Source of the DNA: Zea mays | Taxonomy: Eukaryota > Streptophyta > Magnoliopsida > Poales > Poaceae | DNA: 64,000 nucleotides | Reading direction: 5' to 3' | Assembly (NCBI RefSeq): GCF_902167145.1 | Contig: NC_050104.1 | Location: 95,057,849-95,121,848, forward strand | Part shown: piece after piece, positions 17,205 to 50,562 of the stretch | How the letters are laid out: every line of letters starts with the position of its first letter | How positions within the stretch are numbered: position 1 is the stretch's first letter | Notes under the pieces: model-generated | The model's input: only the letters and a program-made list of their open reading frames with translations | Databases searched by the model: none | What the model was told of the DNA's origin: nothing | Program-made: the position numbers and the translations under genes

Positions 17205-17776
17205 GGGTGTGTATTCGTGTGGGTTTATCTTTGGCATAAACATCATTTTGCATCATACCATCATATCGCATAGCATCGCATCATACATCATTTTGCATCA
17301 ACAAAAGGTTGTGGAGAAGAAGGGAAATTGCTCCTTCAAAAATACTAGTCGAATCACAAAAGAATGTGCTATAGCACAACATGTACCTTCGGTAGACATA
17401 TTGTACTACACAAGGCCAACCTTTGTCAACAGTAGCATAAGGAAAATTCTCTTTGCGAAGCATGAAAAGAAGGGAAGGTGTTTTTTCGCCAAAGGCTCAA
17501 AAACGGTACATACGTAGATTTCATGCATCGCAAAGAAATATATTACATTAATGTACATTCAAGTACTTGATGTTTGTTATGTACATATGGCGGCAGCCAT
17601 ATACAAGCATTACAATTTCCAACACACAAGAATTTAGTCTTCCTTTAGTATCTTCTCAGCAGCTTCATGTAATAGTCTGTCGACGACTTCGTTAGCAATC
17701 TTCATAATATCCAAAGCTTCTTTCATAACCGGATCGTCTTCGGGATTGTACGGCTCCGATGGTGGTGAAAGCCTAG

Positions 17777-17851
17777 CTGCAATAAAAAAATGTGATTGAT
17801 ACTCTTCGAAGCTAGAAACGAACAATGAAGCAAAATTTTAAATAAAAGTAC
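17777..17851 (-). other. Intron 2 of the antisense gene (copy E)
   Basis: The donor is CATAG|GTACTTTTAT and the acceptor TTATTGCAG|CTAGGC, 75 bp, T-rich before the acceptor. The equivalent in copy F (7111-7057) is 55 bp with a GATGCAG acceptor. Confidence 0.6.
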
Positions 17852-18644
17852 CTATGATCATAGCGCGTTCAGCAGCTTCTTCAGCTTGTTTAGCCTCCTC
17901 TCGGGCGTCGTGAGATTTTTTCTCATTCTTTTTAATAGCTCTGTCAGCCATCTCATGACCGCCCTTCATCCAGACATCAGAATAAAACCTCCCGCCTAGT
18001 AAAGAAGCTTCGGCTGACGGGTCCTTCGTGTCGTCAGCTGAGAAAGTATATTCTGGTTGGGCTACAGCCTTAACGTGTTCACAACCGGCCTTTTCTAAAA
18101 TTGCCGCAACCCCTCATGCACCGACGAATGCACAAAAATCCCCGTGATCGCTGAGTAGTTCATCAAAAGCTTCGGCTTCTTTGCCAATCCACTGGATAAC
18201 TCCTTCGGGATCACCGCGGATAAACTTTTGTTCCGAAGAGTATGTTCCCACCTTTGCAAAGCTATCTTCTAGTTTCTTCGCGCATTCTATGGATGTTTCA
18301 AAGCATCTCTCCTTAGAATCCCGAAGCTCTTCAACATTCTTCTGCACCCTAGATCTTTTCATTTCACTTATTTTTTGCTTAGCCTTTGCAACTTCGAAAT
18401 TTTCATTCATTTCTGCAAGTTTTTTCTTCAAATCTTCGACTTCAGCTTTATGGGCTTCGTCTTGAGCACTAAGCTTGGCTTCGCAAGTTTTCAGCTTCTC
18501 CACTAAGGAAAACAGTATCTTATCTTTTTCAAGAGCTTCGTTCCTTAATGTGATGACTTCTGATCGAAGATTTCCAAGAGCCATCTGGCAGCTCTCGTCA
18601 TCTGCTTCCTTTTGAGCTCTTAAAGCTTTACTTAGGATTAATCC

Positions 18645-18730
18645 CTAAAAACAAAAAAATACATGTGAGAACATAACGGTAGCAAGAAAACCTACAAACA
18701 TAGTTTATTTTACAACAAAAGAATAAATAC
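18645..18730 (-). other. Intron 1 of the antisense gene (copy E)
   Basis: The donor is AAG|GTATTTATT and the acceptor TTTTTAG|GGATTAATCC, with an AT-rich 86-bp body. Reading frames join without a stop. The exon border matches the position in copy F (8730-8642). Confidence 0.65.
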
Positions 18731-19140
18731 CTTCAAGCTATTGTAAGCAAGGCTATCTGCAAGATCATCCTTTGACATTGCAGATAGACCGAGCTCAAGC
18801 TTCAGGAACCCCATGTTCTTCATCATCTCCCGGCAAACAGATATCTCCTTATTGTCCAGAAGGCAATATAAAAAGTCATCTTCATTAGTGTCGTTGTATA
18901 CCAAGGATCCTTGTGGATACTTCATATCCCTGGCATATTGTCTAGCTTCGGCAATTTGTTCCTTCGACAATTGCTTCCCTGAAGCATGTTGCACGATAAA
19001 TTCCAGCTCTTCAGTAGATGCCTCAGGAGCAGGAGACTTAAGTTTTTCAGGTACACTTTCTTTTTCCACGGGTTCAGGAGTAGCCCCCGAAGGGCATGCT
19101 TCGGCGGGAGCTGAGGGTCCAGCCTCAGAAGCAGCTTGCT

Positions 19141-21925
19141 GTCACACCTAGATTTAAGGGATAAAGTCGGGTGTGTCTCATATGTGCACCAAGAAAGAAC
19201 AACACATATAATAACAGAGTGCATAGAGATAAATGTCATAAATATCATAAATATACTTATTACATAGAGGAAGTCTTACAAAATAAATGATAAATATAAA
19301 ACGAACTAAATATTATTTCCCTAGCGCCATAAAGCTGACTGGGAGACACCACCTAGATTAAGTCGAACTCCTCGTTGTGCGGCTCCTCTTCGACCACCTG
19401 CTCTTCACCTATGGGGGGGTTATATATCACAAGAGTGAGCTTATAAAAGATCATAGCTCAACAAGTTGTGGGGAATAATGTGCATGAACTCACCAAAGGT
19501 GGGAGTTCATGTGAAGTGTAAGGCTGATCAACAAAATAAAGGTTGAAGCTGAGCATTGCTTTTATAAGTTGGTCGAAATTTTATTAGCAGTTACTAAGTG
19601 TAAGTAAATATCAAACCATAGTAATAGTAAATAAAAGTAATAATAAAGAATCCCAATGCGATGCAAATGACAAATTGAATTTAATTCCATAAATTAATCA
19701 TGTGAGGGTCCGAGCTGCTCATGACCGTGAGCACGACTAGTATACAAGTTTTACACTCTACAGAAGTTGCGCATCTTTACCCACAAGTCGTGTTACCCAT
19801 TTGCCACGGGGTTGTTGGACCCCATACACCTCTACCAAGGAAGCGAGGCAGGGTACCACTACGAGGCCTTTACAAAGTTCCACTAGCTTCAGAAAACCTG
19901 CTACATATTCTAGGAAGCTCCAGTGCAGGGATCACTCGCCTGACCGCCGTCGCAACAAAATCAACCCAAGGACCTCCCTACACGGACTACTCCCCTACTA
20001 CCCTTGCCCCTATCAGGTAAGGTAGTCCTCCACTAGCTTTCCTAGTAGCTTTCCTAGTTAGTCAGCCAAGGGCATCCCATACCACCATTGTGGTAGCACT
20101 ATTTTCCCGAGTGGTTCTCCATGTTCCAATTAACATAATGATCTTATCATGAACAGTAAATAATAAACTGATAATAAAAGTGTGAACATGAATAATGTAT
20201 ATCTCCATACCCAAAACCACATAAAGCAATAACATGTACTACCCAAAAATTCAATGGTAAAACAAGGTATAAAGATAGCCAAACTGGGGTAACCTATTGG
20301 GTCCCATCAAAATTAACCTATGCAGATCATTATGACTAATAAGAACATGACTGGGTAAAAAGGAAGTGATCAAGTGCACAACTTGCCTTCAACAAGCTCC
20401 TGCTCAGCAGTCTCCACCTCCTGAACCCTTGGATCCTCAGTGGCTGGCTTGTCTACTCGCATCAATACAAACAAACATGGTATAGCAAAAATTAACATCA
20501 CACCAAACAATAGAACAGAATGCATGATAATATTCTACGCTGCGTAACGAGATTGTAGGAACAAGAATTACTAAATTTGGAATTATGGTTATTTAGTTAT
20601 GAATTTCTAAAGTTATTTAGCACTTAGAATAGATTAATTTAAGTGAACAATTTTATTCCAAGTTACATGGATAAACAGTGTTACTAGTTGATAGACAATA
20701 TTAAAACAAAATTAATATCACTGGAATGGATCAATTTGTAGTTAAAATGAATTAAATATGAATTATACAAGTTTCTAGAATTATTTTTGTATTAAAAATC
20801 AATTTCTATAATTATTTTTCTATTTTCACTGCTCTCTGGACTGCACGTCAAATTCCAGAAAGGTGCATGGCTAATTCACAAAATCTACACAGACTCAGTA
20901 AACACCAGGACGGACCGCTAGTTGTTTTCCCTAAATCTCAGGGACTTTTTAACAAAACAGACATCACGAAAGGGTATCGTTAACTCCCAGTCGTCCGATC
21001 ACAAGTGTGTGGTTCAGATTAGATTGCAAACCGGTATGAACCCGCGGCCGCTAGATACTGATCCAACGGTCCGCAAGTCCGTTTCCCCCTCACTCGTACA
21101 TCCGCTGATCCCCGGCCGAGATCGACTCGGCTGAATCGGTATGCAGATTCCCATCATGGCCGTTGACCACTAATCTAACGGTGCTCGTGCATCTTCCCTA
21201 ACGTGCCGTCACCAACGGAGGCACCCTTGCCGCCACGGCGGCGCAACTCGCCAGCGCGAGCGAGCCCCCGATTCGAAACACAAATTTACCTGCCACCCGA
21301 TTAAATACGATGTTTAGACTAATGTGAATTGGATGAGGGTAATCATACCGGCTGCGGTGGAGAGTGCGATGCCGCCCATGGTGCTCGGTTGCCCCACGAC
21401 GGAGATCAACCTCTAGTGAGCAATTGCTGACACACCAGTAACCGGATTCGGATGAGGAGGCCCTGGAAACCACCCCAAGACCCCGACGTCGCGGCAAGGG
21501 CCCCCAATCGACACCCGAAGGACGTCCAGACAAGGTTGGCCCTCAGCGGCAATCTCCTCTCTCTCTCTCACCCTCCGCGTTCTCCCACTAGGGTTAACTA
21601 TGACCAAGGTACTTGGGGCAGCTAGGGTTTTGAAGCATCGCCCCCCGCCGACTGCACAATCGTTTTATACGCGGAGCGAGCCACCAGCTACGCGAATTCC
21701 ACGGGTTCCGTTGAGCTCGCCCGTGAATCTTGCGGGGACGACGGTCCTGACCGCTTGGCCCCACGCTTAAGCATCCCGCCCGCGAAGGCGCGCGCCCGCT
21801 AGGTGGGACCCCGCCCCCAGAGACCCCTGCGCAGTTGCGGTACATGGCGATAGAACGGTGGGGCCCGCGTGTCAGCCGGAGCACGCGCGGTATGAGGACT
21901 TGGGCCGCACGAAGTTTGGTTCGGC
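19141..21925 (-). mobile_element. Truncated Gypsy LTR (Tekay-like), minus strand
   Basis: The plus strand starts TGTCACACCTAG at 19141, i.e. a minus-strand LTR end GGTGTGACA abutting exon 1 of the antisense gene (CTTGC before it). On the minus strand a TATAAAA box (21669-21663) is followed by a GC-rich leader and then about 2.4 kb of AT-rich DNA, as in the long LTRs of maize chromoviruses. The U3 start is missing: at about 21926 the sequence turns into the integrase of element C. No internal region or coding sequence is present. The family name is tentative. Confidence 0.5.
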
Positions 21926-22698
21926 TGGACCGACTAGCCCATGTTGGTATGAAGAATCTTCACAAGCTTCTAAAGGGAGAACACATTTTGGGACTAACAA
22001 ATGTTCATTATGAGAAAGACAGGGTTTGTAGCGCATGTCAAGCAGGGAAGCAAGTTGGCACCCACCATCCACACAAGAACATCATGATGACTGACAGGTC
22101 GTTTGAACTACTCCACATGGATTTATTCGGCCCGATTGCTTACATAAGCATCGGCGGGAGTAAGTATTATCTTGTAATTGTGGATGATTATTCTCGCTTC
22201 ACTTGGGTATTCTTTTTATAGGAAAAACCTCAAACCCAAGAGACACTCAAGGAATTCTTGAGACGAGCTCAAAATGAGTTTGGATTAAGAATAAAAAAGA
22301 TAAGAAGCGACAACGGAATGGAGTTCAAGAACTCACAAATTGAAGGCTTCCTTGAGGAGGAGGGCATCAAGCGTGAGTTCTCTTCTCCCTACACACCACA
22401 ACAAAATGGTGTAGTGGAGAGGAAGAATAGAACTCTACTTGACATGGCGAGGACCATGCTTGATGAGTACAAGACACTGGACTGGTTTTGGGCTGAGGCG
22501 ATTAACACCGCCTGCTACTCCATCAACCGGCTCTACCTTCACCGAATCCTCAAGAAGACATCATATGAACTCCTAACCGGTAAAAAGCCCAATGTTTCAT
22601 ATTTTAGAGTCTTTGGTAGAAAATGTTTTATTCTTGTTAAAAGAGGTAGAAAAATCTAAATTTGCTCCTAAGGCTGTAGAAGGCTTTTACTTGGTTAT
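21926..22698 (+). pseudogene. Copia integrase fragment of element C
   Basis: This is the start of surviving element C. It begins inside the integrase zinc-binding region ([18 protein letters not shown]) and runs through the catalytic core: [50 protein letters not shown]. It then reaches FWAEAINTACY and FRVFG. A TAG at 22219 and a frame change near 22640 disable it. Element B is inserted at 22698/22699 with target duplication GTTAT (22694-22698). The 5' LTR, gag, protease and integrase start of C are missing. Confidence 0.85.
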
Positions 22699-24182
22699 TG
22701 AAAGCATCTAGGCCCCTGGTTGGTTTTAGTGATTAATGACAACGTAGTATTATATGTGACTAACGTATGTTTTGCAGAGACAAATGGTAAGTTAGGTCGC
22801 ATGACAGGTAGAAGTACTACAACGGTGAAAACAATCCCGGAGATAAGAACTCGAAGCGACGGCTAAAACGACGAAACAAAAGGCGAAGGTCTACGGAGTC
22901 CGAGTGTCAAGGAGATGTGGACACTCGCGATTTAGTTAGGTCTTTTATTCTCTTTTAGTCGTACTATAAAGAGGGGTTGTCGATGAGTAGTTTGACCAAG
23001 AGAGTTCTAGTGTAGTGTTGGTGCACAATCACACTCACATACAGTCCTAGGTGTCACTCTAGAACTCACTCACAAGTTAGAACGAAAACCGATTTGAAAA
23101 TCAAGAGTTAGGGTTTTCTGGCCCTGGGGCACCGGACTGTCCGGTGTGCACCGGACTGTCCGGTGCACCCTCTGCCAGGTGGGGCCTGGCTGGCCCGGGG
23201 AAGATCCTTCTCCATCCAGAAACCCGAGAGCGCAGGTTTCAGAGATGAATTTTAGTGGCGCACCGGACAGCGCACCGGACATCGCACCGGACTGTCCGGT
23301 GTGCACCCGACAGTGACTGTTCACTGTCCGGTGTGCCATGAGTCCAACGGCTAGCTGTCAGAACTAGCCGTTGGAAACGACCGGTGGCGCACCGGTGGCG
23401 CACCGTTGGCGCACCGGACTGTCCGGTGCGCCAGTGCGCAGAAAGTTGCCTTTAACGGCTAGTTGGTGGGTGAGGGCTATTTATACCCCTTCCACCCACC
23501 ATATTCAAGGTCTTGCACTCCACATTTATTCCAGCACATTGCTAGAGCATTGCAAGCACCAAAAGCCTAGTGAGGAGATTAGAGAATCTTAATCCGCGTT
23601 TGTTCCTCATTAGCGCTAGCGAGAGCCACCTAGAGCACACACCACTTGCATTAGGCTTCTCTTGGTCAAGCGAAAGTCTACGGCTTGTTACTCTTGGTGA
23701 TCGGCATCACCTAGATGGCTTGGTGGCGTTGGGAGCTCGGTGATCACCGTGAAGATCTTGTTGGTGACCGGACTCAAGTTTGTAAGCGGTCTCGAGGGAT
23801 CCACCGCGCCGGAGTGGCAAAGGATCATCTCGTAGTGAGCACTTGGTTCTTGCGAGGACCAAGGGGGAGCGATACCCTTGCGCGGGTGCTCCAACGAGGA
23901 CTAGTGGACAGTGCCGACTCTTCGATACCTCGGGAAAAATTGGAGGAGTCTTCTAAACCTTGCTTTACATTCCGCACTTAATTCAAGCACTTTACATTGT
24001 GTATTTGTTTAGCAAGTATTTGAAGTATTGTCTTAGCATTGTTACATTTCTAGTATTATATTCTTAGTGCTAGTTGTTGGGGTGAAGTTGGGGTCTTGCT
24101 TAGTTCTTGCTTAGGTTTTAATTAGTGTTGACTTTTAGAAAAGCCCAATTCACCCCCCCTCTTGGGCATCGTGATCCTTTCA
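22699..24182 (+). repeat. 5' LTR of element B
   Basis: 1,484 bp, TGAAAG...CTTTCA. CACCGGACTGTCCGGTG-type palindromes cluster at 23125-23440, just upstream of the TATA-like TATTTATA (23479-23486). Such palindromes upstream of the promoter are described for Sirevirus LTRs. Compared with the 3' LTR it has one extra palindrome unit near 23140. Confidence 0.9.
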
Positions 24183-24183
24183 A

Positions 24184-24196
24184 TTGGTATAGAGCC
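24184..24196 (+). promoter_or_regulatory. Primer binding site of element B
   Basis: TTGGTATAGAGCC follows the LTR by one base. It matches the initiator Met-tRNA site TGGTATCAGAGCC with one base missing, which may weaken priming. Confidence 0.8.
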
Positions 24197-24233
24197 TTGT
24201 TGCTCATAGATTAGCTTAACCGCTAGAGTTACG

Positions 24234-25085
24234 ATGTCCGGTGGGGATGGACCTCCTCCCGTTTTTGATGGTGACGATTTTCCTTATTGGAAAATTCGTA
24301 TGGAAGCATACTTAGAGGCTATAGACATTGGTGTCTATAAAGCCGCCACACAAGGATTCCCCGAACCTAGAGATCCCACAAATCTTGTAGGTGATGAGTT
24401 CAATTATGAGAAATGGAATGCTAAGGCCAAAAACACCCTTTTTAGAGGCCTTTGCAAAGATGTGTTCAATAGAGTAAGAAATCATAAAAATGCTCATGAT
24501 TTGTGGATGGACATTTGTGCTCTACACGAAGGAACTAGAAGTGAGCGTGAGGAGATATATCACATAGCCATGCGAAAGTTAAATTCTTTTGAAATGCTTG
24601 CTAATGAAAATGCAAATGCTATGTACTCACGTCTCAATATTCTTGTAGAGGAAGTTAATGGATTGGGGCTTACTCAAATCTCACAACCGGATGTTGTGAG
24701 GAAGATTCTCAGTGTCCTCCCAATAGACAAATATGGACACATTGTCACTGTGCTACATCAAATGGATCTTTCAGTTACCACACCTACACAAATTTTGGGA
24801 AAGATCAATGCCCATGAGATGTACATGCACATCAACGACAAAGAAGAATCATCTTCCAAAAGAAAGGATTTGGCTCTCAAAGCAAATCATGAAAGAAAAG
24901 GAAAAGCAAAAATACAAGTTGAGGAAGAATCCTCAAGTGATGATGACCTTGATGAAACATTGCCTTGATGGTAAGGAAGACCACCAAGATGTTGAAGAAG
25001 CTAAATAGAGAAGGCATCAAATTTGATTCAAGAAAGAAGAAATTCTTTTCCAGCAAAAGAAAGCCCATTTCTGAGATGGACTGCT
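24234..25085 (+). pseudogene. Gag of element B, N-terminal part
   Basis: It begins MSGGDGPPPVFDGDDFPYWK, the start style of Copia gags, and continues through the UBN2-like capsid region (FRGLCKDVFNRVRNHKNAHDLW, VVRKILSVLP). Then comes a basic and acidic linker ending at TGA 24966-24968. A frame change close to 24960 puts the following codons in another frame, which runs up to the first Cys of the zinc knuckle. Element A is inserted there (25086), so Gag is split by 10.9 kb. The continuation is at 35977-37414. Confidence 0.85.
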
Positions 25086-27386
25086 TGAAAGTTGCCTAGA
25101 GGGGGGGTGAATAGGCAAGTTAAAACTTTTTCAACAAAAACTAGAAGCAAACTGGGTAAAACTGAATTGATCTCGAAATTCACCCAGTTAACTTTGGAAA
25201 TGAGATGTTCTAAATGATCCACAGGGTTCAAAGTAGTAGATCTGAGAATGGCACTTCTCAAAATCCACACACCAAAAAGATATAAACAAATCTTCCACGC
25301 AATGGTGAGAGAACGAAGAACACAAACAAACACAATGAGCAAGAACACAAGAGACATAAGATTTATCCCGAGGTTCGGTCACACCACCAAGGTGCCCTAC
25401 TTCCTCGTTGAGGCGCCCACAAAGAGCCGGGTCTCTTTCAACCCTAATCCTCCCTTTGCCGACCACAAAGGTCAAGCTCACACACTAATCTTTGCTCAAA
25501 CGAGCGGGTAATACAAACTTTCTTGTGGTCTTCCACAAGATTTGGAGACTCACAAGAGACACCTAGTCGTCTAGGAGCTAGAAGCTCCAAGAGTAATGAA
25601 TCCACAAAGAACTCGATGTAGTACCAAAGCTCGAATGAAGAAGAGCAAGAGATATTTGGAGATGAAGCTCAAAAACCGCAGCTCTCAAACTCACTCAAAG
25701 ATTTCTCTCCAAAGATTTGAAATGGGAGAGGCAAGAGATGTGTGAGAGAGAGAGGGAGGTGTTTCTTGTGTTAGAAATGGAGTTCAAATCGTGCTCACTA
25801 CTTTTGGGGAGAGAGGTAGGAGGTAGTATATATAGGTGGAGCTCAAAACTAGCCGTTGGGCAGATTTTTCTGCCTGAGACCGGTTGAACCTCCCCCTAGG
25901 GCGGTTGAACCTCCCCTGGCAGGCCTGGCAGCCTGTCTGCCAGTCTGACTGGCAGACTGACGCGCAGACTGACCTGCAGACTGGTCAGGGTTGACCAGAC
26001 CGGTTGAACCTCCCCCTAGGGCGGTTGAACCGCCCCTGACACCTCTGGCGACCTGTTTGCCAGTCTGACTTGCAGACTGTTGGTCAGAGGTCAGAGGGGT
26101 CAGAGACCAGCTGAACTGCCCCTCAGGACCAGTTCAATTGGTCTTGACCAGAGAGTTTAGGAGAGAAAACCCCAGCTCAACTGCCCGGAGGCAAGTTCAG
26201 CTGGTGTATGGTCAAAGAGGTTCACAGCTGAAGTTGAGTTCAGCTGAAGTTGAGAAAGCTCAACTCAGCTGAAGTTCAGCTCAGCTGAAAAGCTCAGCTG
26301 CAGCTGAAGAAGCTCAACTCAGCTGAAGTCAAGTTCAGCTGGAAAGCTCAGCTACAGTTGAAGAAGTTCAGCTGCTTTTCAGCAAGAACACTCTAGGTTT
26401 CTCAACCCTAACCACGGTCAACCATAGAACGTTAAAGAGATTTTTGCTTTTCAAAAATAGCTTTTGAATAGAGAGGTTTGAGCTTTGGCAAACACCAACC
26501 TTCTTTTTGGATCCCCCTTTATAGTACGACGATTCCTATACTCAAGTTAAATAAAATATAATGAAGTAAACTCCTTGAGTCATTGGTGACTCATGTGTGA
26601 TTTCTCCATGGCGTTGCTTCATAAGGATCACAAACATCTTTGTCTCACCTTTTGAAGCAAACATAAATCAAACCCTGTGACTTGTACCATATCACCATGT
26701 ATGAGTTCAAAACATGGCTTCAAGTCACCTTGCTGATGCATCAACATGTTATAACTCTTCATAGCTGATTAGTTCATCGACTTAGTGCAAGTACTCTCTT
26801 CTTCACCTTAGCCATGGTACCTCGGTCTACAAGCCGTCGCTTGGCCTTCACCTTCGCTTAGTTCCTCGAAGCCCTTTCCTTGCTATCTTCACCCTATCAA
26901 GCCATTCTTGAGTCACATCATATTGAGCATCCATTGAGAGAATCATTTCTTCAATATTGTGAACCTTGCTTGAATGTCTTCTAGATATAACCGTTAAGAT
27001 CAATCAAGCTCTAATTTGATTCTCATAGAAGCATATATGGACTGATAGTAATATGGTCAAGCCAATTCACGATTCCTCATATCTTATTCACTTTGGCTTG
27101 ACCTATCCTCTTAATCACTTCATCCTCTATTCTGGTCATATGTATGTAGTGATTTCTCAGGTCTTGTCCATATATTCAAACCAATATAGAGACCATATTA
27201 TATCCATTTGCATTGTCTCACTGGTTATTTGACCTTGTGTTGAACCTTGTTCACTGATCATTATACACTATTCAAGTATGTTCATCATACTGAATTTCCT
27301 GTTCAACACTTAGCAAACTTGTTAGACCTTTAAATGTGTTGTTATCCAAATCACCAAAACTCACAAAAGGGATGAATGCACTTTCA
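25086..27386 (-). repeat. 3' LTR of element A
   Basis: On the minus strand it runs TGAAAGTGCATTC...CAACTTTCA. TATATATA lies at 25834-25827. Upstream of it in element terms are GACCGGTTGAACC pairs (25880-26025) and an array of CAGCTG hexamers (26111-26385). Confidence 0.92.
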
Positions 27387-33621: not shown

Positions 33622-33660
33622 GATCTTTCCTCACGCGGTTAAGCGTTAGAACGAGGATTA

Positions 33661-37414: not shown

Positions 37415-37431
37415 ATTGTCTATGGATGTAG

Positions 37432-40400
37432 GTGAACTACAAGACCGGTGGGAGCCATTGGGTTATTGACAGTGGATGCACACAACATATGACAGGCAAC
37501 CCATGGATGTTCACCTCACTTGATGAGAATGTTGATGGGCAAGATAAAATCACATTTGGAGACAATTCAAAAGGAAAAGTGCAAGGACTTGGCAAGGTGG
37601 CAATCTCAAATGATTTATCAATATCAAATGTTCTCTTAGTTGCACCTTTGAGCTTCAATTTATTATCAGTGGGTCAACTCTGTGATCTTGGACTTCAATG
37701 CTTATTCACTCCAACAGAGGTTATTGTAACAAAGATGGATGATAAATCAATGGTGTTCAAAGGATTTAGGTACAACAACCTCTACTTAGTGGATTTCACT
37801 TCAGAAGATGCAGACTTAAGAACTTGCCTCTTCACCAAAGCTTCACTTGGATGGCTCTGGCATAGGAGGCTTGCACATGTTGGGATGAGCACACTCAAGA
37901 AGGTATTAAAGAAAGATATGGTTAGAGGATTAAAGGATGTGGTGTTTGAAAAAGACAAGCCATGCAGTGCATGTCAAGCTGGAAAGCAAGTTGCTAATAC
38001 ACATCCTACTAAAGCCTTCATGTCAACATCAAGGCCACTGGAACTACTTCATATGGATTTATTTGGACCCACAAATTATGTAAGTGTCGGTGGCAACCTC
38101 TACTGTCTAGTGATTGTTGATGACTTCTCAAGATACACTTGGGTGTTCTTTCTCCATGACAAATCTGAAGTTGCATCTATATTCAAGAAGTTTGCCAAGA
38201 AAGCACAAAATGAATTTGATTGCAAGATCAAGAAGATTAGAAGTGATAATGGCAAAGAATTTGACAACACCAACATTCATGAGTACTGTGATGAAATTGG
38301 GATCAAGCATGAAGTATCTGCCACATACACACCTCAACAAAATGGAGTTGTTGAAAGGAAAAATAGGACCTTGATCACTCTTGCAAGAACAATGATTGAT
38401 GAGTATAACACACCGGAGAGGTTTTGGGCCGAAGCTGTCAACACTGCTTGTTATGCATCAAATAGGTTATTTCCTCACCGGCTACTTGCGAAGACTCCCT
38501 ATGAACTACTAAATGGGAAAAAGCCAGACGTCTCCTTCTTCCGGGTGTTTGGGTGCAAATGCTACATCTACAAGAAACGCCATCATCTAGGGAAGTTTCA
38601 AAGACGTTGTGATATTGGTTTTCTTTTGGGTTATTCATTAAAGTCCAAAGCATATCAAGTATTCAACCATGCCACTGGCGTGGTAGAAGAAACATATGAT
38701 GTGGAATTTGATGAGACTAATGGCTCCCAAGGAGCACTTGAAAATCTTGATGATGTAGGTGATGAGCCACTTAGGGAAGCAATGAAGAACATGTCAATTG
38801 GAGCTATCAAACCAAAAGAAGATGAAGAAGAGGTGCAAATCATTGACAGGCCTTCTTCATCAAATGTACCACAAGATGATGAAAAAGATGAGAGGCATGC
38901 AAATGAAGATACATTTGTCTCTCATGAACAAGCAAGGGTACAAGCCGAAGATGTTGATGCTCCAGGATCTTCTTCCCAAGTGGTTGACAGGAGAAACTCA
39001 TCACTACTTCAAGCTCATCCTCAAAACCAAATCATCGGGAGTCCTTCACAAGGGGTTATTACTCGATCACATAGACATGCTTCTTTTATTGAACATCACT
39101 CCTTTGTTTCTTGTGTTGAGCCTACTTGTATAGATGAGGCGCTACAGGATCCGGACTGGGTGAATGCCATGCATGAAGAACTTAACAACTTCACCCGTAA
39201 TGAAGTTTGGACCCTGAAGAAGCCCCCACAAGATGCAAGAATCATTGGAACAAAGTGGGTGTTCAGAAACAAACAAGATGATCAAGGTGTGATTGTAAGG
39301 AACAAGGCAAGACTTGTCGCAAAGGGATTCTCTCAAGTTGAAGGCTTAGATTTTGGAGAAACCTTTGCACCGGTTGCTCGACTGGAAGCCATCTGTATCC
39401 TACTTGCATATGCATCATGCTATGATATAAAACTTTATCAAATGGATGTAAAAAGTGCATTTTTAAATGGCTTCATAAATGAACTTGTATATGTTGAGCA
39501 ACCGCCTGGATTTGAAGACCCTAGATATCCTAACCATGCTTACAGGTTGTCCAAGGCGCTTTATGGGCTAAAGCAGGCTCCAAGGGCTTGGTATGAGCGT
39601 CTTCGCGACTTCCTAATCGAAAAGGGCTTCAAGATCGGGACCGTCGACACAACTCTCTTCACAAAGAAACATAACGGTGATATTTTCATTTGTCAAGTAT
39701 ATGTTGATGATATAATCTTTGGTTCGACAAATGACTATCATTGCAAGGAATTTGGTGAGTTGATGTCGAAGGAGTTCGAGATGTCAATGATTGGTGAGCT
39801 AACGTACTTCCTCGGCTTTCAAGTCAAGCAAATGAAAGATGGTAACTTTCTCTCACAAGAGAAGTATACCAAAGACTTGTTGAAAAGGTTCAACATGGAG
39901 AAGTGCAAACCAATCAAGACCCCCATGCCTACAAATGGACATCTCGACTTAGATGAGGGAGGTAACCCGGTTAATCAAACTCTCTACCGCTCTATGATTG
40001 GTAGTTTATTGTACCTTACCGCATCTAGGCCCGATATTATGTTTAGTGTCTGCATGTGTGCTAGATTTCAATCTAATCCTAAGAAAGCTCATCTTCGCGC
40101 TGTTAAGAGAATTCTTAGGTATCTCAGGCACACCACAAGCGTTGGTCTGTGGTATCCCAAAGGAGCTACTTTTGATTTAATTGGCTATTCCGATTCGGAT
40201 TATGCCGGTTGCAAAATTGATAGGAAAAGTACTTCTGGGGGATGCCATCTGCTTGGCAGGATCACTAGTATCATGGACATTCAAAAAGCAAAACAGTGTT
40301 GCCTTGTCAACTGCCGAAGCGGAATACATTGTCGCAGGTGCTTGTTGCACACAAATTTTATATATGAAACAAACTCTTCTAGACTATGGCGTAGTACTAG

Positions 40401-40654
40401 AAAAGGTACCTTTGTTGTGTGATAATGAGAGTGCTGTTAAAATTGCTAATAATCCTGTACAACACTCTCGCACCAAGCACATTGATATCCGTCATCACTT
40501 CCTTAGAGATCATGTTGCTAAAGGAGATATCATTTTAGAAGGAGTGAGGTCGGAGGATCAATTAGCGGATATTTTCACTAAGCCACTTGATAAGACCCGC
40601 TTTTGCATGTTGAGGAATGAACTAAATATTCTTGATCTCAGAAATTTTATGTAA
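37432..40654 (+). pseudogene. Pol polyprotein of element B (PR-INT-RT-RH)
   Basis: Copia order. Protease has DSGCTQHM (about residues 13-20). Integrase shows [10 protein letters not shown] and [10 protein letters not shown], then [15 protein letters not shown] and [16 protein letters not shown]. Reverse transcriptase runs from [10 protein letters not shown] through AFLNG to YVDDIIFGS (39700-39711, about residue 757). RNase H starts [21 protein letters not shown] single frame change near 40255 splits RNase H; it resumes as [19 protein letters not shown] and ends at 40654 with DIFTKPLDKTRF. Pol is in a different frame from gag, about 20 nt downstream of the gag stop. Except for the shift it is complete. 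Confidence 0.92.
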
Positions 40655-42313
40655 AATGTCAAATGGTGTTGTCAAGCTTGCATTGCATGATTAAATTACT
40701 TGTATTGCATCTAGGGCTTGTCTAACCTAGTTGAGATAACCGCCAACAAAGCGAGTGAAAAAGCTTAACTCGGGTCAAACTTGACAAGTCTTAGTTTTAA
40801 GCTTTTAGCACTTAAATTCTTACTTATTTGTGCAATTGTTGGTTCTTGAAATATGCATGAGGTACTGCACTTAGGGGAGTATTCAACACTCAAATCACTC
40901 ATGAAAATCCCTAGTGCAAGCCAAAATGCAAATTTCGCCATTTGCCTATTTTCTCCAAAAAATTATCTAGCCTATGGCAAAATATTTTGAAAAGTATATG
41001 AGGGTGCCAATACCTGTCCCAACAAGTGTTATTTTGTGTGATTATAAGTTGGGATTTGGTTTGGTTGGAAATTAGATAGAAAAATTCAAAATTTTCCAAT
41101 CTTCCCTCTGTCTGGGCTCACCGGATAGTCCGGTGTGCACCGGACACTGCACTGTGCAATGTCCGGTGCACCGGCAGCCGTGCGCTAAAACTCCTTTCTC
41201 TGTGCGCTGTCCGGTGGTTCACCGGACAGCTACTGTGCGCTGTCCGGTGTGCACCGGACAGGCACTGTAGACTGTCCGGTGCGCCCATACTCTGTTTTTA
41301 AAAAACTCTTCTCTGCCCGAGCCCGAGCCCAGGCTCATTTCTTCTCCCCTGCCAGCTTCCTCTCTCTGTCTCTGGCGCTTTTCCCCCGTCGCCGGCGACC
41401 TCCCTCCTCTCCGGTGATCCTACGGCGACCTCGTGCTTCTCTCCTTCCCTCTCTAGTGAGCATCCTCTACTCTCTCTTTCCCTCTTTTTCTCTTTGTCTA
41501 TTCCTGCTGTGAGCACCCCTCTCCACCCTTTTTGTGCCCAAATCAAATTCCTGTCAAATCCAGTAAATCCAAATGGTGGAATGTGTTCCAATGTGCCCAT
41601 TGAGTATCCCTGCAGGTTTCTAGCTCCCTTTGGGAGGGTTTCACAACCTAAATTGACTCAATCTCCCAAAACCTAATTCACCGCACGCCAAGTGTTCGGT
41701 GAAATGCCCAAACCACCCAAAAATGCTCCAATTGAACCCAAATTTTTCAGGCACCTTCACAACACTTCCAGTAACATACTTGCCAAATTTCACGCCAATC
41801 CGAGATTCCAGGCTTAAATTTCACCAAATTCCCCGTTTCGAGCGATCGTTTCCGAGCCGAGTGCCCAAATCTTTTTTTCTTCGCCTAAATTCAAACCAAG
41901 CACGCACTTCACTCATATTCACCTATATAAACCTATTCGTGAAGTATCGGCTCAATTCCATGTCGTTTCGTGCCTCAATTCAAATTCCAAACCTCCTATG
42001 GCACTGTTTATCGTTCAAACGTCGTTTTCACGTCGTTTGACCTCTTGATCGTCTCATCTCGTGTTTCCTGTGCCATATTTCTCTGTGTATGTATTTATTC
42101 ACATTTCATATACTTATGACTATGTGACTAATACGTGCTCACCTCTTCTGTCATTTCAGTGACCTTGATTGCCCGTGTGCCGTCTCCTGTCCTGCCTGGA
42201 TCGTCACCTCTCGTGTGAGCTTTCCAGGTAGTCATCTTATCCTTTGCTATTTCTATCGGATACTATCGATCTATGCTTAGTCATTCTCTCTCATTTGCAG
42301 TCATCAGTTCAGG
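40655..42313 (+). other. Spacer of element B with palindromes and splice-acceptor-like sites
   Basis: A CACCGGA...TCCGGTG palindrome cluster lies at 41118-41285, the same motif as in the LTRs. It is followed by a pyrimidine-rich stretch (41340-41510). TTTCAG (near 42160), TTCCAG (near 42228) and CATTTGCAG (42292-42300) look like 3' splice sites; the last is 13 nt before the ORF3 ATG. No coding sequence is seen here. Confidence 0.55.
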
Positions 42314-44440
42314 ATGCCGCGCACGAAGAATGTGTCGACGCCAGGGGGAGGCGATGATGAGGATCCTCGTCGTCCCTTCAGGCAGGTCAAGGGCAAGACA
42401 GACTACTTGGAGCAGCAGGAAGGCCGCAAGAAGCGGTGTACGGACAGAGTAGCCCATGCAGCAGCAGCAGCCGCTACGCAGGCCGAGCTTGGAGATCAGC
42501 CGCAGACTCCGTCAGATCAGATTGCATATCGTGTTCGTCGTCTCGCCTCCCGGCCTCGCTCCTCCACTCACACCACTGCTTCCACTCCACCACCCACTCT
42601 GCCTGCTCCCGTCACCCCTGTTGCGCCATCCACCACCACAGCCATACCCGCTACCTCCACTACACCAGCTTCCACTGCTCCTCCCGCTCCCGCTTCAGCT
42701 CCTCCTGTCCCTCCACCTCATTTCCGGGAGCGCGATGAGACTGAGGTACAACCACTTGCTGCGGATCCTAGACTGTTTGACCTTCAGCGTGCTACAGCGG
42801 CACGGGTACGTAAGTTCAGATACGTACCCGTGGAGTCTTGGTTACCAGCTCAGAGGGTCCCTGCAGCAGTTGACCTATTCAGCACACGTATTCAGGAGTC
42901 TTTTTTCAGAGCTCAGATGTCTGCTCAGATAGCTCTGCGAGTGCACCGGCTCTTGGACCTTCCAGCTTTTCTGCTCGCCGCCGGTGCTGACTCTGAGGCG
43001 CACCTCACATATCTGCCTGGCCTTCTGACCCTTTTGACTACCAGCAGCAGGTATGTTGAGGAGTGGGTACGAGTCTTCTACGCCTCTATATGGATAGACT
43101 CGGATCATCACTGGATGAGGTTTCGTTTTGAGCGAGAGGATGTCACCATTACTGCCAGTCAGATCCGCCAGCTCTTTGGATTTCCCGCGTCGACGACTCG
43201 TCTTCACAGCCTCTGCTATGACACTTCTGACCCTCCTCGTCGCCCTCACGACGATGTGGCTCCGGGTACAGCTCACGTCGCGGCTCTGTTCCGCCCGCCC
43301 TTTTCAGATGGGTCGCGACGTTCACCGGTAGACTTTACTATAGCAGCCAAGTATTTATTTGAGCTTATCAGACGGACTCTTCTGCCGAGGATGGGATACA
43401 GGGAGGCTACCACACATATCCAGCTCTGGCTCCTTGGTGCCCTGGTCTCTCACTCTGAGTTTGACGTCGTGGACTTCCTTATTTGTGAGATCGAGGACAC
43501 CGTTTTGGATGGGATTCGTGCTCGTCGACAGTTGCCATATGCTCACTACTTATGCCACATCTTTGCGCAGCTGATTCAGCCTCCTCGGTTTTAGGGCACA
43601 CTTGAGGCCTCACGCCTCGTTTTTGGATCCTACCGTCCTGCGCCTGAGACTCCTGTGCCAGCTTCTGCTCCTATTTTTGACTCTCAGGCCGAGGATGCAG
43701 CTCTTCATCAATTCGACACTCAGGATACAGCAGTTGATGATGATGATGATGATGATTTTGGGGTTCCTCCTCCGCCTCCTATGCCTCCACGCTCACATGA
43801 TCATGAGGCTGGGAGTTCTAGTGCTGCCCCTGCTGCCCCTCCGGCTATGGACCCTGCTCTTGCTTCGATTCTCTAGTCTATCACTCAGCAGCAGGCTCAC
43901 CTGGCAGCCGAGCAGGCCCGATTATCCGAGAGGATGCTCTCGATGTTTCAGAACATGCAGGACAGGCAGGATGCGCTTCAGCAGCAGCTACTCCAGGATC
44001 GGGCTGAGAGCAGGGCATTCATGGCTCTTATGCTACAGCATTCTGGTGTCTCAGTTCCCCCAGTTCAGTCTGCTCCACCTCCTCCGCTTCAGGCTCCAGT
44101 TGTGCCAGCGATTCAGACCGGACCCCCTATTCCTTCTATTGGTCCCTCTCCGCTCCGGCCGGTCACTTTGGCTTTCACCTCTCCGGTTCTCAGCTCTGTC
44201 TGCCCGCAGCCGCCAGTGCCACCAGCATCTGCTGTTACCACTACTGCTATGGCAGTATCTGTGACCACTTCTGTTCCGGCAGCTCCTGCAGTGCGGCCTC
44301 AGTCCGAGTCAGTACTAGCTCCAGCTTCTACCGCAGATCCTGGATCCGAGACTGACTCTGACCCCCCGCCGGCGTTCGCTCTGCTGCCTCGACCGCGACC
44401 GGATGCGCCCCCGCCGCCTCCTCCCGCTTCAGATGTTTAG
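42314..44440 (+). pseudogene. ORF3 (env-like / plant-transposon-protein type) of element B
   Basis: One frame of 709 codons is interrupted by TAG at 43592-43594 and TAG at 43874-43876. It has a basic N-terminus (MPRTKNVSTPGGG), an Ala/Pro/Thr-rich stretch, and a folded domain of about 270 residues (FRERDETEVQPL to AQLIQPPRF) like the domain annotated as putative plant transposon protein. A seven-Asp run follows, then a short coiled coil (QARLSERMLSMFQNMQDRQD) and a Pro-rich tail. No signal peptide or clear membrane span is seen. Sireviruses often carry an extra ORF in this place, called env-like; the envelope role is not shown by this sequence. Probably expressed from a spliced RNA. Confidence 0.65.
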
Positions 44441-44874
44441 GTTCGGATGCCCTTTTGGTGTTTGACGCCAAAGGGGGAGAGATATGAGTTGTGAGAGCTA
44501 GGGGGAGTTAGAGAGTTAGTAGAGAGTCATTTTGATGTAATATATGTGCTTGCTACTCTCTGTACTAGCTTGATGTTTTTGGCTCACAAACTCGATATAT
44601 ACTCTCGTTGCGTATGATTGACTGTGTGTATTATGTTTTCACCTTATATTTTATCACCAGTCTTCTAAGTTCTTGTTTCATTGATTTAACTTCACTTTTA
44701 TATGAACAAGAATCTTATGATGTGTATGCGCTCACTCTTATTAGTATGATACACGTTCTTTCTATCAAAGATTACTGAGTATAACTAACCATCCTTTCTA
44801 TTGACAGAAACTTCAAAACAAACTACTCTCATAAAACTTGTAGGGTTGTCATCAATCACCAAAAAGGGGGAGAT
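44441..44874 (+). promoter_or_regulatory. 3' untranslated part of B with multiple polypurine tracts
   Basis: AAAGGGGGAGAGA (near 44470) directly follows a hairpin TTTTGGTG...CGCCAAA (44454-44472). AGGGGGAG recurs near 44500, and the LTR-adjacent tract AAAAAGGGGGAGAT ends at 44874 after CATCAATCACC. Multiple polypurine tracts are a described Sirevirus feature. Confidence 0.75.
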
Positions 44875-46335
44875 TGAAAGCATCTAGGCCCCTGGTTGGT
44901 TTTAGTGATTAATGACAACGTAGTATTATATGTGACTAACGTATGTTTTGCAGAGACAAATGGTAAGTTAGGTCGCATGACAGGTAGAAGTACTACAACG
45001 GTGAACAATCCCGGAGATAAGAACTCGAAGCGACGGCTAAAACGACGAAACAAAAGGCGAAGGTCTACGGAGTCCGAGTGTCAAGAGATGTGGACACTCG
45101 CGATTTAGTTAGGTCTTTTATTCTCTTTTAGCCGTACTATAAAGAGGGGTTGTCGATGAGTAGTTTGACCAAGAGAGTTCTAGTGTAGTGTTGGTGCACA
45201 ATCACACTCACATACAGTGCTAGGTGTCACTCTAGAACTCACTCACAAGTTAGAACGAAAACCGATTTGAAAATCAAGAGTTAGGGTTTTCTAGCCATGG
45301 GGCACCGGACTGTCCGGTGCACCCTCTGCCAGGTGGGGCCTGGCTGGCCCGGGGAAGATCCTTCTCCATCCAGAAACCCGAGAGCGCAGGTTTTAGAGAT
45401 GAATTTTAGTGGCGCACCGGACAGCGCACCGGACTGTCCGGTGTGCACCGGACAGTGAATGTTCACTGTCCGGTGTGCCATAAGTCCAACGGCTAGCTGT
45501 CAGAACTAGCCGTTGGAAACGACCGTTGGTGCACCGGTGGCGCACCGTTGGCGCACCAGTGGCGCACCGGACTGTCCGGTGCGCCAGTGCGCAGAAAGTT
45601 GCCTTTAACGACTAGTTGGTGGGTGAGGGCTATTTATACCCCTTCCACCCACCATATTCAAGGTCTTGCACTCCACATTTATTCTAGCACATTGCTAGAG
45701 CATTGCAAGCACCAAAAGCCTAGTGAGGAGATTAGAGAATCTTAATCCGCGTTTGTTCCTCATTAGCGCTAGCGAGAGCCACCTAGAGCACACACCACTT
45801 GCATTAGGCTTCTCTTGGTCAAGCGAAAGTCTACGGCTTGTTACTCTTGGTGATCGGCATCACCTAGACGGCTTGGTGGCGTTGGGAGCTCGGTGATCAC
45901 CGTGAAGATCTTGTTGGTGACCGGACTCAAGTTTGTAAGCGGTCTCGAGGGATCCACCGCGCCGGAGTGGCAAAGGATCATCTCGTAGTGAGCACTTGGT
46001 TCTTGCGAAGACCAAGGGGGAGCGATACCCTTGCGCGGGTGCTCCAACGAGGACTAGTGGAGAGTGCCGACTCTTCGATACATCGGGAAAAATTGGAGGA
46101 GTCTTCTAAACCTTGCTTTACATTCCGCACTTAATTCAAGCACTTTACATTGTGTATTTGTTTAGCAAGTATTTGAAGTATTGTCTTAGCATTGTTACAT
46201 TTCTAGTATTATATTCTTAGTGCTAGTTGTTGGGGTGAAGTTGGGCTCTTGCTTAGTTCTTGCTTAGGTTTTAATTAGTGTTGACTTTTAGAAAAGCCCA
46301 ATTCACCCCCCCTCTTGGGCATCGTGATCCTTTCA
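44875..46335 (+). repeat. 3' LTR of element B
   Basis: 1,461 bp, TGAAAGCATC...GATCCTTTCA. TATTTATA lies at 45631-45638. The palindrome cluster at 45300-45590 has a different unit count from the 5' LTR. GTTAT follows at 46336-46340. Confidence 0.9.
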
Positions 46336-46340
46336 GTTAT

Positions 46341-48397
46341 GACTCAAACACAAGGGCATATAGAGTCTTCAACAAATCCACATGATTAGCCGAGGTTTCT
46401 TGTGACATTATGTTTGATGAGACTAATGGCTCCCAAGTGGAGCAAGTTGATCTTGATGAGCTAGATGATGAAGAGGCTCTGTGCATCGCGCTAAGGAACA
46501 TGTCCATTGGGGATGTGTGTCCTAAGGAATCCAAAGAGCCCACTCAAGCACAAGATCAACCATCATCTTCCAATCAAGCATCTCCACCAACTCAAGATGA
46601 GGATCAGGCTCAAGACAATGAAGATGAAGATCAAGAAGATGAGCCACCTCAAGAGGAGGACAATGATCAAGGGGGAGATGACAATGATCAAGACAAGGAA
46701 GATGATCAAGAAGAACAGGATCAAAGACCACCACACCCAAGAGTCCACCAAGCGATTCAAAGAGATCAGCCCGTGAACTCCATCCTCGGCGATATTCATA
46801 AGGGGGTAACCACTCGATCTCGAGTCGCTCATTTATGTGAACATTACTCTTTTGTTTCCTCTATTGAACCATACAGGGTAGAGGATGCACTAAGAGATTC
46901 GGATTAGGTGTTGGCAATGCAAGAGGAGCTCAACAATTTCATAAGGAATGAGGTATGGCATTTAGTTCCACGTCCTAATCAAAATGTTGTAGGTACCAAA
47001 TGGGTATTCCACAACAAGCAAGACGAGCATGGTGTGGTGACAAGGAACAAAGCCCGACTTGTGGCCAAAGGATATTCACAAGTCGAAGCTTTGGATTTTA
47101 GTGAAACCTATGCACCCGTAGCTAGGCTTGAGTCAATTCGTATATTACTTGCCTATGCTACTTACCATGGCTTTAAGCTTTATCAAATGGACGTGAAAAG
47201 TGTCATCCTCAATGGACCAATCAAGGAAGAGGTCTATGTTGAGCAACCTCCCGGCTTTGAAGATAGTGAGTACCCTAACCATGTCTATAAACTCTCAAAG
47301 GCGCTTTATGGGCTCAAGCAAGTCCCAAGAGCATGGTATGAATGCCTAAGAGATTTCCTTATCACTAATGGCTTCAAAGTCGGAAAAGCCGATCCTACTC
47401 TCTTTACTAAAACTATTGCAAATGATTTGTTTGTATGCCAAATTTATGTTGATGATATCATATTTGGGTCTACTAACAAATATACTTGTGAAGAGTTTAG
47501 TAGGATAATGGTTCAAAAATTCGAGATGTCTATGATGGGGGAGTTGAAGTATTTCTTAGGATTTCAAGTAAAGCAACTCCAAGAGGGCACCTTCATCAGC
47601 CAAACAAAGTACATTCAAGATATACTCAACAAGTTTGGAATGAAGGATACCAAGCCCATCAAGACACCCATGGGAACAAATGGGCATCTCGACCTCGACA
47701 CGGGAGGTAAATCTGTAGATCAAAAGGTATACTGGTCGATGATAGGATCTCTACTCTATTTATGTGCATCTCGACCGGATATTATGCTTTCCGTATGCAT
47801 GTGTGCAAGGTTCCAAGTCGATCCTAAGGAAGTTCACCTTAGGGCCGTGAAAAGAATCATGAGATATTTAGTTTATAGACCTAAGTTTGGTCTCTGGTAC
47901 CCCAAGGGATCCACCTTTGATTTAATAGGTTATTCAGATGCTGATTGGACAGGGTGTAAAATTGATAGGAAGAGCACATCAGGGACTTGTCAGTTTTTGG
48001 GAAGATCTCTGGTGTCTTGGGCTTCAAAGAAACAAAATTCAGTAGCTCTTTTTACCGCCGAAGCCAAGTACATTGTCGCAGGCCATTGTTGCGCGCAATT
48101 GCTTTGGATGAGGCAAACCCTTAGGGACTATGGCTACAAATTGAGCAAACTCCCTCTCCTATGTGATAATGAGAGTGCAATCCGCGTGGCGGATAATCCC
48201 GTTGAACACAACCACACTAAGCACATAGCCATTCGGTATCACTTTTTGAGAGATCACCAACAAAGGGGGGATATCGAGATTGCTTATGTTAGCACCAAAG
48301 AATAACTAGCCGATATCTTTACCAAACCATTAGATGAGAAAACCTTTACCAAACTTAGGAATGAGCTAAACATTCTTGATTCTCAGAACTTTGATTG
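46341..48397 (+). pseudogene. Copia RT/RNase H of element C
   Basis: It continues the pol of C after element B. There is a linker (TRAYRVFNKS, then a TGA), a long Asp/Glu/Gln-rich spacer (46410-46907), a TAG at 46905-46907, then RT from [13 protein letters not shown] through [12 protein letters not shown] to [11 protein letters not shown] (YVDD 47444-47455). RNase H follows ([35 protein letters not shown]) and then TAA at 48303-48305. The last codons (LADIFTKPLDEKTF to NFD) end at 48397. RT and RNase H are otherwise open for 465 codons. The AFLNG equivalent reads VILNG here. Confidence 0.88.
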
Positions 48398-49198
48398 ATA
48401 CTTTGCACACATAGCTCATTTATGTACCTTTGATCATATCTCTTTTATGTCTATGACTAATGTGTTTTCAAGTGTATTCCTATGCTAAGTCGTAGATTGA
48501 AAGGGAAATGGAGTCTTCGACGAAGACAAGGCTTCCACTCCACTCTATCGGTATTATTTACCTCTTCGCCGTCACTCCGCACCGCTCTCCACTTTGGTAT
48601 AATCTTCACTTTTATTACTCATACCATTGAGGAGATAGTAAAAAGGGCTCTCAAAAGACTCTATTTTTGGCGATTAATGCCAAAGGAGGAGAAATATAGC
48701 CCAAAGCAAAAGGACTGCACCACCACCAATTTCAAAGTTTAAAAAGAAGTTTTCAATTGGTATCTCATGATGAAATATTTAAAAGAGGATTTTTCAAATT
48801 GGTATCTAAAATATTTGGTCTTCTTTCAATTGGTAAAACCCTCTTGAACACTAAGAGGAGATTTTCATCCAGGGGGAGTTTTGTTTGAGTCAAAGAAAAA
48901 TCATTTGAAACAGGGGGAGAAAATTTCAAATCTTGAAAATGCTTCTTGAAATCTTATACCTTTGACTATTTGCAAAAGACTTTGAAAAGATTTTCCAAAA
49001 GAATTTGCAAAAACAAAACAAGTGTTGCAAATGTGGTCCAAAATGTTAAAAAAAGAAAGCAATCCATGCATATCTAGTGAAAGTATAAATTGGTTTAATT
49101 CCAAGCAACCTTTGCACTTACCTTATGCAAACTAGTACAATTTTGCACTTATATATTTGCTTTGTTTGTGTTGGCATCAATCACCAAAAAGGGGAGGT
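48398..49198 (+). other. 3' untranslated region of element C with polypurine tracts
   Basis: A hairpin TTTTTGGCG...TGCCAAA (48664-48684) is followed by GGAGGAGAAA. CCAGGGGGAG (near 48870) and CAGGGGGAGAAAA (near 48910) are further tracts. The LTR-adjacent tract AAAAAGGGGAGG at 49186-49198 follows TTGGCATCAATCACCAA. The stretch 48600-48740 matches 11110-11230 of element D in inverted orientation. Confidence 0.7.
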
Positions 49199-50383
49199 TG
49201 AAAGGGAAATAGGGTCAAACCTTTTCCTAAATGATTTTGGTGGTTGAAATGCCCAACACAAATAATTGGACTAACTAGTTTGCTCTAGATTATATGTTCT
49301 ATAGGTGCCAAAGATTTAACACAAACCAATAAAAAGATTAAAGTTAGGGTTCAAAAGAAAGGAGCAAAAGAAACCGAAGAGAACCCTGGTCTGGCGCACC
49401 GGACTGTCCGATGTGCCACCGGACAGTGTCCGGTGCACCAGGGACAATACAGGTTGAACTCTTCACCTTCGGGTTTCTGGAGAGCTGCTTCGCTATAATT
49501 CACCGGACTGTCCGGTGTGCCAGCGGAGCAACGACTAAGAAGCGCAATGGTCGACTCCAACGGTCGCCTGCAAACGTGAACAGTGCGCGGACAGTTCACG
49601 CAGAGTTAGAGCAGCGCCAGAAGGCGCACCGGACAGTGAATAGTGGTTGTCCGGTGCGGCACCGGACTGTCCGGTGCCCCAAGTTGTCAGAGCTCCAACG
49701 GTCAAAACCGTCAGAACCCTAATGGTTGGGTGACGTGGCTGGTGCACCGGACTGTCCGGTGCGCCCATCGACAGCCAGCCTCCCCAACGGTTTGTTTGGT
49801 GGTTGGGGCTATAAATACCCCCCAACCACCACCACTTCAAGCATCCAAGTTTTTCACACATCCCATTCAATACAAGAGCTAGTGCAATCAATACAAGACA
49901 CAATTCAAAAGAATCAAAGTCTCTCCAAGTCCCAAATACACTCCAAACAATTAGTCACTATAGAGTTTAGCTCGTGTTCTTTGAGCTCTTGTTCTTGGAT
50001 CGCTTTCTTCCTTCCTCATTCTTGTTCCCAAGTGTTTTGTAAGCAAGGCAAGAGACACCAATTGTGTGGTGGTCCTTGCGGGGTCTAAGTGACCCGTGAG
50101 AATTAAGGAGATAGCTCACTCGGTCTAAGTGACCGTTTGAGAGAGGGAAAGGGTTGAAAGAGACCCGGTCTTTGTGACCACCTCAACGGGGACTAGGTTC
50201 TTTGGAACCGAACCTCGGTAAAACAAATCACCGTGTCATCTGCTCTATTTCTTTTGTTGATTTGTTTTCCCCTCTCTTTTGGACTCGCTTTTATTTCTAA
50301 CGCTAACCCCGACTTGTAGTTGTGCTTTAAGTTTATAAATTTCAGTTTTCGCCTATTCACCCCCCTCTAGGCGGCGACTTTCA
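49199..50383 (+). repeat. 3' LTR of element C (Opie/Ji-like)
   Basis: 1,185 bp from TGAAAGGGAAATAGGG to GGCGACTTTCA. Palindromes of the CACCGGACTGTCCGGTG type lie at 49400-49765, and TATAAATA at 49810-49817. Directly followed by the exon 1 start region of the antisense gene of copy E (CTTTC at 50384). The 5' LTR is gone. Confidence 0.85.
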
Positions 50384-50562
50384 CTTTCTACATCAAAATC
50401 TCCACTATCACTGGAACCCTCAGATATTCCAGCTAGTGTCTCATGTGCAATCTTCTCCGCATTGGTTCTTTCCATAGCTTCGTAAAACCTGGACAGCGTC
50501 AGGTCGACAATCTTCTTCCCGTCAGCCATCAAACCAAAGGTCGTTGAAATGCCGAAGCTCAA
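50384..50562 (-). pseudogene. Antisense gene of copy E, N-terminal exon part
   Basis: The first ATG after the promoter gives MSFGISTTFGLMADGKKIVD, followed by LSRFYEAMERTNAEKIAHETLAGISEG and an acidic Ser/Asp stretch, until the LTR of element C cuts in after 59 codons plus two bases. The rest of exon 1 resumes at 19140, but the two ends do not join in frame and part of the exon was probably lost with the insertions. The ATG lies about 95 nt downstream of a TATA box. Confidence 0.55.

Follow-up and report, generated by a model that had tools for sequence, protein, structure and literature searches.

We analysed a stretch of Zea mays DNA of 64,000 nucleotides (assembly GCF_902167145.1, contig NC_050104.1, positions 95,057,849 to 95,121,848; the window hereafter), which is a nest of retrotransposons with long terminal repeats (LTRs), of plant type by inference from their genes. 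Two of these elements, here called E and F, carry gag on the plus strand and, facing it on the minus strand, a frame interrupted by introns. We propose, with a probability of about 0.82, that these frames are decayed antisense accessory genes of the aORF-3R (Transposase_28) kind, built of three exons and residing in pol-less, zeon-like members of the Retand/Tat Ty3-gypsy elements. The name Zeon is our assumption for E and F, based on their structure. Both copies are decayed and non-functional, F being more damaged than E. The original prediction, made from the sequence of the window, described a spliced antisense frame in both copies with introns at corresponding places, and this was confirmed, as both F introns lie at places homologous to both E introns and have the same GT..AG ends.

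The spliced frame of copy E comprises 447 codons over three exons at 17634-19140 (all parts of the antisense gene are on the minus strand) and contains a single internal stop, a TGA at 18114-18116, in agreement with the prediction of canonical, in-frame introns and one stop in the exons; read in either of the other frames, the spliced sequence contains 26 or 48 stops. Exon A (18731..19140) is the C-terminal part of a long first exon; its frame is open up to the GT at 18730, its 5' end is truncated by nested insertions and it is 85% identical over 139 aa to the relative P0151. It is followed by intron 1 (18645..18730; 86 nt, phase 0, T-rich, with in-frame stops), exon B (17852..18644), which holds the internal TGA and encodes a long-helix, putatively coiled-coil region, intron 2 (17777..17851; 75 nt, phase 1, with an in-frame stop) and exon C (17634..17776), which terminates in TAA and encodes a C-terminus resembled by 16 relatives. 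Because in-frame stops are present in both introns, the E frame requires splicing. Copy F consists of exon A (8731..9246), intron 1 (8643..8730; 88 nt), exon B (7112..8642), intron 2 (7057..7111; 55 nt) and exon C (6899..7056), which also terminates in TAA, and both introns contain in-frame stops. The upstream region of F is lost at a copia-type LTR ending near 9260, beside exon A. Exon B is interrupted by stops and by disruptions of its frame, and it also holds an insert of 629 bp (7263-7891); this insert, presumably hAT-like, has an 8-bp flanking duplication (GCCCTTGG) and the ends TAGGGATG.. and ..CAACCCTA. The four introns of E and F have a T content of 0.44-0.55 and a GC content of 0.20-0.29, compared with 0.22-0.25 and 0.42-0.46, respectively, in five measured exon stretches. 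Downstream of the antisense stop, a candidate 3' untranslated region (UTR) or poly(A) region is 78% identical between E (17450-17553) and F (6726-6826).

The intron boundaries are conserved far beyond the two copies. A search with the spliced E frame gave 2748 proteins at E<=0.001 among 7993 candidates scored, of which the best 120 were listed, and a further search, directed at junction 1, added 37 to these among its 63 matches, resulting in a set of 157 relatives. An insert of 23-36 residues was present at junction 1 in all 83 relatives that match both sides; the other 74 were left out of the count as one side was absent or the motif match too poor, and among these P0009, P0112 and P0150 cross the junction with disrupted sequence. 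The insert begins with V (GTN) in 80 of the 83 and ends with Q in 75, as expected from the GT and CAG ends of an intron. When the inserts were grouped into 21 clusters (<60% identity), 20 clusters began with V and 19 ended with Q, at an identity of 0.19-0.76 for 14 other insert-end positions and of 0.48-1.00 for 40 flanking exon positions (31 of them at least 0.86). Junction 2 was spanned by 16 relatives and carried an insert in 15, 13 of which begin with G, as a retained GGT codon predicts, and in the relative P0059 intron 2 is exactly absent and the exons are joined directly. These GT..AG ends, homologous positions and T-rich composition are features of spliceosomal introns, and the sequence comparisons strongly suggest that both introns were spliced. 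An improbable alternative is that no splicing takes place at either intron. In most relatives the two stretches would then be read through or serve as linkers within the protein, and decay would account for the stops that E and F have there. Stop-free read-through is indeed what is seen in 83/83 relatives at junction 1 and in 15/16 at junction 2, and a gene caller blind to introns lists only such cases; however, the interiors of the inserts vary in sequence and in length while the ends coding for GT and AG are nearly fixed, the introns of E and F are T-rich, and intron 2 is precisely absent from P0059. A profile of the relatives retrieved no locus from viral contigs.

The antisense frame was formerly selected as a protein. 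Over 436 aligned codons, E and F have 251 identical residues and differ at 126, 96 and 251 first, second and third codon positions, respectively. The ratio of nonsynonymous to synonymous differences per site (pN/pS) is 0.315 (431 codons used; bootstrap 95% 0.271-0.366), a value obtained from these two divergent copies, given in place of dN/dS because the synonymous sites are saturated (pS 0.78); in the shifted frames it is 1.107 and 1.300. We base past selection on the codon-position pattern and on the contrast with the shifted frames, as identity alone says little. The original prediction would have fallen if the frame had turned out to be another element's ordinary gag or pol; together with a chance frame, this explanation can draw on the dense transposon nest and on the lack of a Pfam match above cut-off in the E and F antisense pieces themselves, but it has next to no probability given the codon-position pattern, the shifted-frame controls, the conserved intron boundaries and the Transposase_28 domain in the N-terminal relatives.

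The assignment to the Transposase_28 family comes from the N-terminus of the gene. A second piece of E at 50384..50562 contains the end of the 5'UTR and the first ~49 codons, with the ATG at 50529. Of 67 candidate proteins, 53 matched this piece at E<=0.01; a precomputed Transposase_28 domain (PF04195) is present in 48 of these 53, and hmmscan found the domain in 7/7 N-terminal relatives scanned, two of them below the cut-off. In the window, tblastn with relatives did not detect this domain, which is seen in the N-terminal relatives only. From the spacings in relatives, summed along the gene, E is without roughly 450 codons of the middle of the gene, including Transposase_28 and the next regions, which would lie downstream of the N-terminal piece and upstream of exon A; this middle was not found elsewhere in the window (tblastn with four relatives as queries, E<=0.1). 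The order, the strand and the homology of the two pieces lead us to infer a single original copy of E. Thus, the proposal that E consists of 17634-19140 plus 50384-50562 holds in that the latter is the N-terminus, but the two are not halves separated by a simple insertion. A 20-nt exact plus-strand repeat (17469-17488 and 50723-50742) lies beyond either end of the E antisense gene. Landmarks placed on 210 listed proteins join the segments in order through overlapping open reading frames (ORFs): 51 ORFs run from the N-terminus to Transposase_28, 35 on to the next region and 7 to the MASV region, 39 lead into exon A, 63 run along exon A, 83 through intron 1, 116, 126 and 116 along exon B, and 15 across intron 2 into the final exon (15 being in order by chain landmarks, 16 by junction motifs). 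Since overlapping ORFs follow one another in this order, a single gene most likely comprises both the Transposase_28 ORF and the long-helix ORF in these families, as judged from such overlaps. As far as its parts are present in the window, the gene is homologous in protein sequence, along its length, to the Retand/Tat antisense accessory gene.

A host gene captured by one family and carried antisense would also have introns and a coiled coil, as a cellular gene may. This origin is very unlikely: the C-terminal part has 2748 relatives, the best 120 of which are without a precomputed Pfam domain (0/120), 48 of the 53 N-terminal relatives carry a transposon domain, and Vicient 2025 reports no similarity of TRP28 outside transposable elements (PMC11963269).

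The predicted structure of the relative P0002 contains a 115-residue helix (269-383) in exon B, with block-mean predicted local distance difference test (pLDDT) values of 75-94, and this modelled helix fits a coiled coil, in line with the coiled coil originally proposed. A Foldseek search of the model against the PDB gave nothing at E<=0.001, and PDB sequence profiles gave none at 0.01, the two matches found having E-values of 0.41 and 0.74. A model made with AlphaFold2 of the Transposase_28 half (P0165) was left unused at a mean pLDDT of 39, and one sub-threshold NCBIfam match in three proteins was treated as chance.

Several observations weigh against the reading of E and F as copies of a single three-exon, coiled-coil gene of this family. 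The spliced form at junction 1 was found in 0/83 proteins, despite a search aimed there, and P0059, which has the exons joined at junction 2, could stem from genomic DNA or from a transcript that was assembled. The gene is not covered from end to end by any one ORF; the chain was put together from proteins that overlap one another, and it is thinnest at the 7 ORFs between the post-Transposase_28 region and the MASV region. The N-terminal piece is without a match among the first 157 relatives, because those start further downstream. The P0002 model has a mean pLDDT of only 60.9 and a predicted template modelling score of 0.32, includes the read-through residues of intron 1, and a helix is no proof of a coiled coil. 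DNA identity between E and F is 62-66% in exons and 55-58% in introns, but a downstream non-coding stretch is 61% identical, so DNA identity alone does not mark exons. Finally, the orientation to gag was checked in the window copies only, and not in relatives.

In E and F the gene lies antisense to gag and 3' of the sense coding region. The decayed F gag occupies ~4540..6077 on the plus strand, opposite in orientation to the spliced gene; one of five scanned pieces (5136-5255) gave a weak Retrotrans_gag match (19 bits, cut-off 24.1) and the other four gave none. A C-terminal tail (16585..16740, plus strand) is all that remains of the E gag, its left side being cut by a copia-type element; the last residues of this tail resemble those of the F gag, which in F is reached past two in-frame stops. 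Between gag and the antisense gene there are tandem repeats in both copies (plus strand), with a 62-bp unit in F (6177..6458) and homologous repeats in E (16886..17264). The distance from the end of gag to the antisense stop is 0.8-0.9 kb in both copies, which leaves no room for pol; E and F are thus gag-only by structure, with gag present and pol absent. The coding constraint, the conserved intron boundaries and the predicted helix bear out the earlier claim of a multi-exon antisense gene, unlike Gag or Pol, in pol-less elements. The same spacing and similar repeats in E and F suggest that the loss of pol predates their split. The F 5' LTR (3903..4519, plus strand) runs from TGTTGG to CCAACA and is followed by a site resembling a primer-binding site (PBS); its 617 bp, by our reading, differ from the 698 given for Zeon in the presumed LTR column of a table in PMC3091746.

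For the predicted promoter of its own, the gene has one candidate. In E a putative promoter and 5'UTR (50530..50675, minus strand) contains a TATA-like box, CATATAAATAG; it precedes the ATG by 135 nt and is a consensus match only. In F the upstream region is lost. Segments similar to the F LTR occur near 51028-51217, the LTR start being inverted at 51028-51090 and a plus-strand LTR stretch lying close by at 51123-51217, so that the two are placed head to head. The inverted LTR end with its following sequence was considered as an antisense promoter and dropped, as only its first 63 bases resemble the F LTR more than weakly (5/300 mononucleotide shuffles score as high).

Other elements make up the surroundings. 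Between F and E (9260 and 16582) lies a copia element that is Sirevirus-like by its PBS and LTR end; its 5' LTR seems to be cut short at 16582. A plus-strand ORF at 42281-43594, inside another element, has a sub-threshold Transposase_32 match (PF20167; 35.2 bits, cut-off 45). On the minus strand, 56726-63253 is a GC-rich gypsy element with long frames and a Retrotrans_gag match in 60932-63250, and lies between flanks in which units of 48 and 56 bp are repeated in tandem (51928-52644 and 63565-64000).

The gene is not of an unknown kind; it very probably is an antisense accessory ORF (aORF-3R, Transposase_28) already described in Retand/Tat. Antisense TRP28 ORFs have been reported in 97% of recent Retand clusters (PMC11963269) and Transposase_28 in 23% of Retand elements (PMC6317226), and a DNA-binding capacity has been predicted for TRP28 (PMC7264820, PMC11963269). 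The Retand TRP28 ORFs of Vicient 2025 have the domain that most N-terminal relatives of E carry, and share with E and F the position antisense to gag between the coding region and the 3' LTR, nearby tandem repeats and Smc-like ORFs in the same region; they differ in being described as separate ORFs of at least 600 bp, in a main text where the word intron does not occur, and in coming from elements chosen by a complete reverse transcriptase domain, whereas E and F are without pol (PMC11963269). The review PMC7264820 assigns Grande gene23 to the aORF-3R kind, reports a nuclear protein and a separate promoter for Grande, and urges examination of antisense and spliced transcripts; gene23 and the RIRE2/Retand aORF-3R are, by description, antisense accessory genes like ours. 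The Cinful-Zeon pair of maize offers a parallel to the gag-only E and F, in which a gag-coding element is accompanied by a partner coding for polyprotein domains (PMC8547701). Plant LTR retrotransposons are generally intron-less, Ogre and EVADE being notable exceptions according to a 2025 review (PMC12786077), and single introns occur in most of the triticale copia GAG-RNAs studied (PMC7765848). While these cases (see also PMC6317226) resemble ours in having introns, their introns sit in the sense RNA, whereas those of E and F are antisense and would remain unremoved from the RNA intermediate. No statement of introns in antisense Transposase_28 ORFs was found in the literature searched, and introns may already have been reported for gene23. 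Therefore, the accessory gene is of a known kind, its two-intron gene model seems to be new, and its spliced structure has apparently been overlooked.

The gene structure, the past selection at the protein level, the family identity and the antisense orientation to gag demonstrated in both copies can be combined into a proposed mechanism. The intact gene would have had a long first exon (encoding the N-terminus, Transposase_28, a linker and the exon A domain), separated by intron 1 from the long-helix exon, which intron 2 would part from a short final exon. Its transcription would start at a promoter close to the 3' LTR and proceed towards gag, and the transcript would be spliced by the host. 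The genomic RNA of the element is the other strand, on which the introns read CT..AC and would be neither recognised nor removed, so that they would survive retrotransposition. The protein would be made from integrated DNA only. Most likely, it would be a nuclear protein with a coiled coil that influences the DNA of the element itself or its transcription, and the element would be mobilised in trans by a pol-bearing partner. We tentatively extend this, as a possibility slightly short of even, to the antisense locus of grass Retand elements at large, autonomous and gag-only, which would harbour one three-exon Transposase_28/coiled-coil gene, selected even without pol, whose antisense orientation lets its introns pass through the RNA cycles and so yields a host-spliced, strand-coded regulator from integrated DNA only, never from packaged RNA.

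The competing explanation that survives best, although we consider it unlikely, is that the protein gene was of use in autonomous ancestors and is a mere passenger in the pol-less elements, where the antisense RNA matters (through double-stranded RNA and silencing), or nothing does. It is favoured by the death of both copies, by the discussion of antisense RNA as regulatory in PMC7264820 and by the basis of the selection estimate, which compares no more than one pair of divergent copies. It is opposed by the strong coding constraint between two elements that share a pol-less layout, which is not decisive as their divergence may partly predate the loss of pol.

A spliced, three-exon structure would explain why surveys of unbroken frames list the gene in pieces: extra-ORF surveys apply length cut-offs to unspliced frames, i.e. 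250 codons (PMC6317226) or 600 bp (PMC11963269), and the former reports highly heterogeneous extra-ORF proteins. If this is one spliced gene, the Transposase_28 ORFs and the coiled-coil (perhaps 'Smc') ORFs would be one protein, which can be aligned, dated and tested. A checkable rule would follow for retroelements, namely that introns of antisense genes persist freely, whereas sense introns need regulated or partial splicing. If a gag-only element keeps such a gene, this would point to a protein that is required in cis or that restricts the use of the partner.

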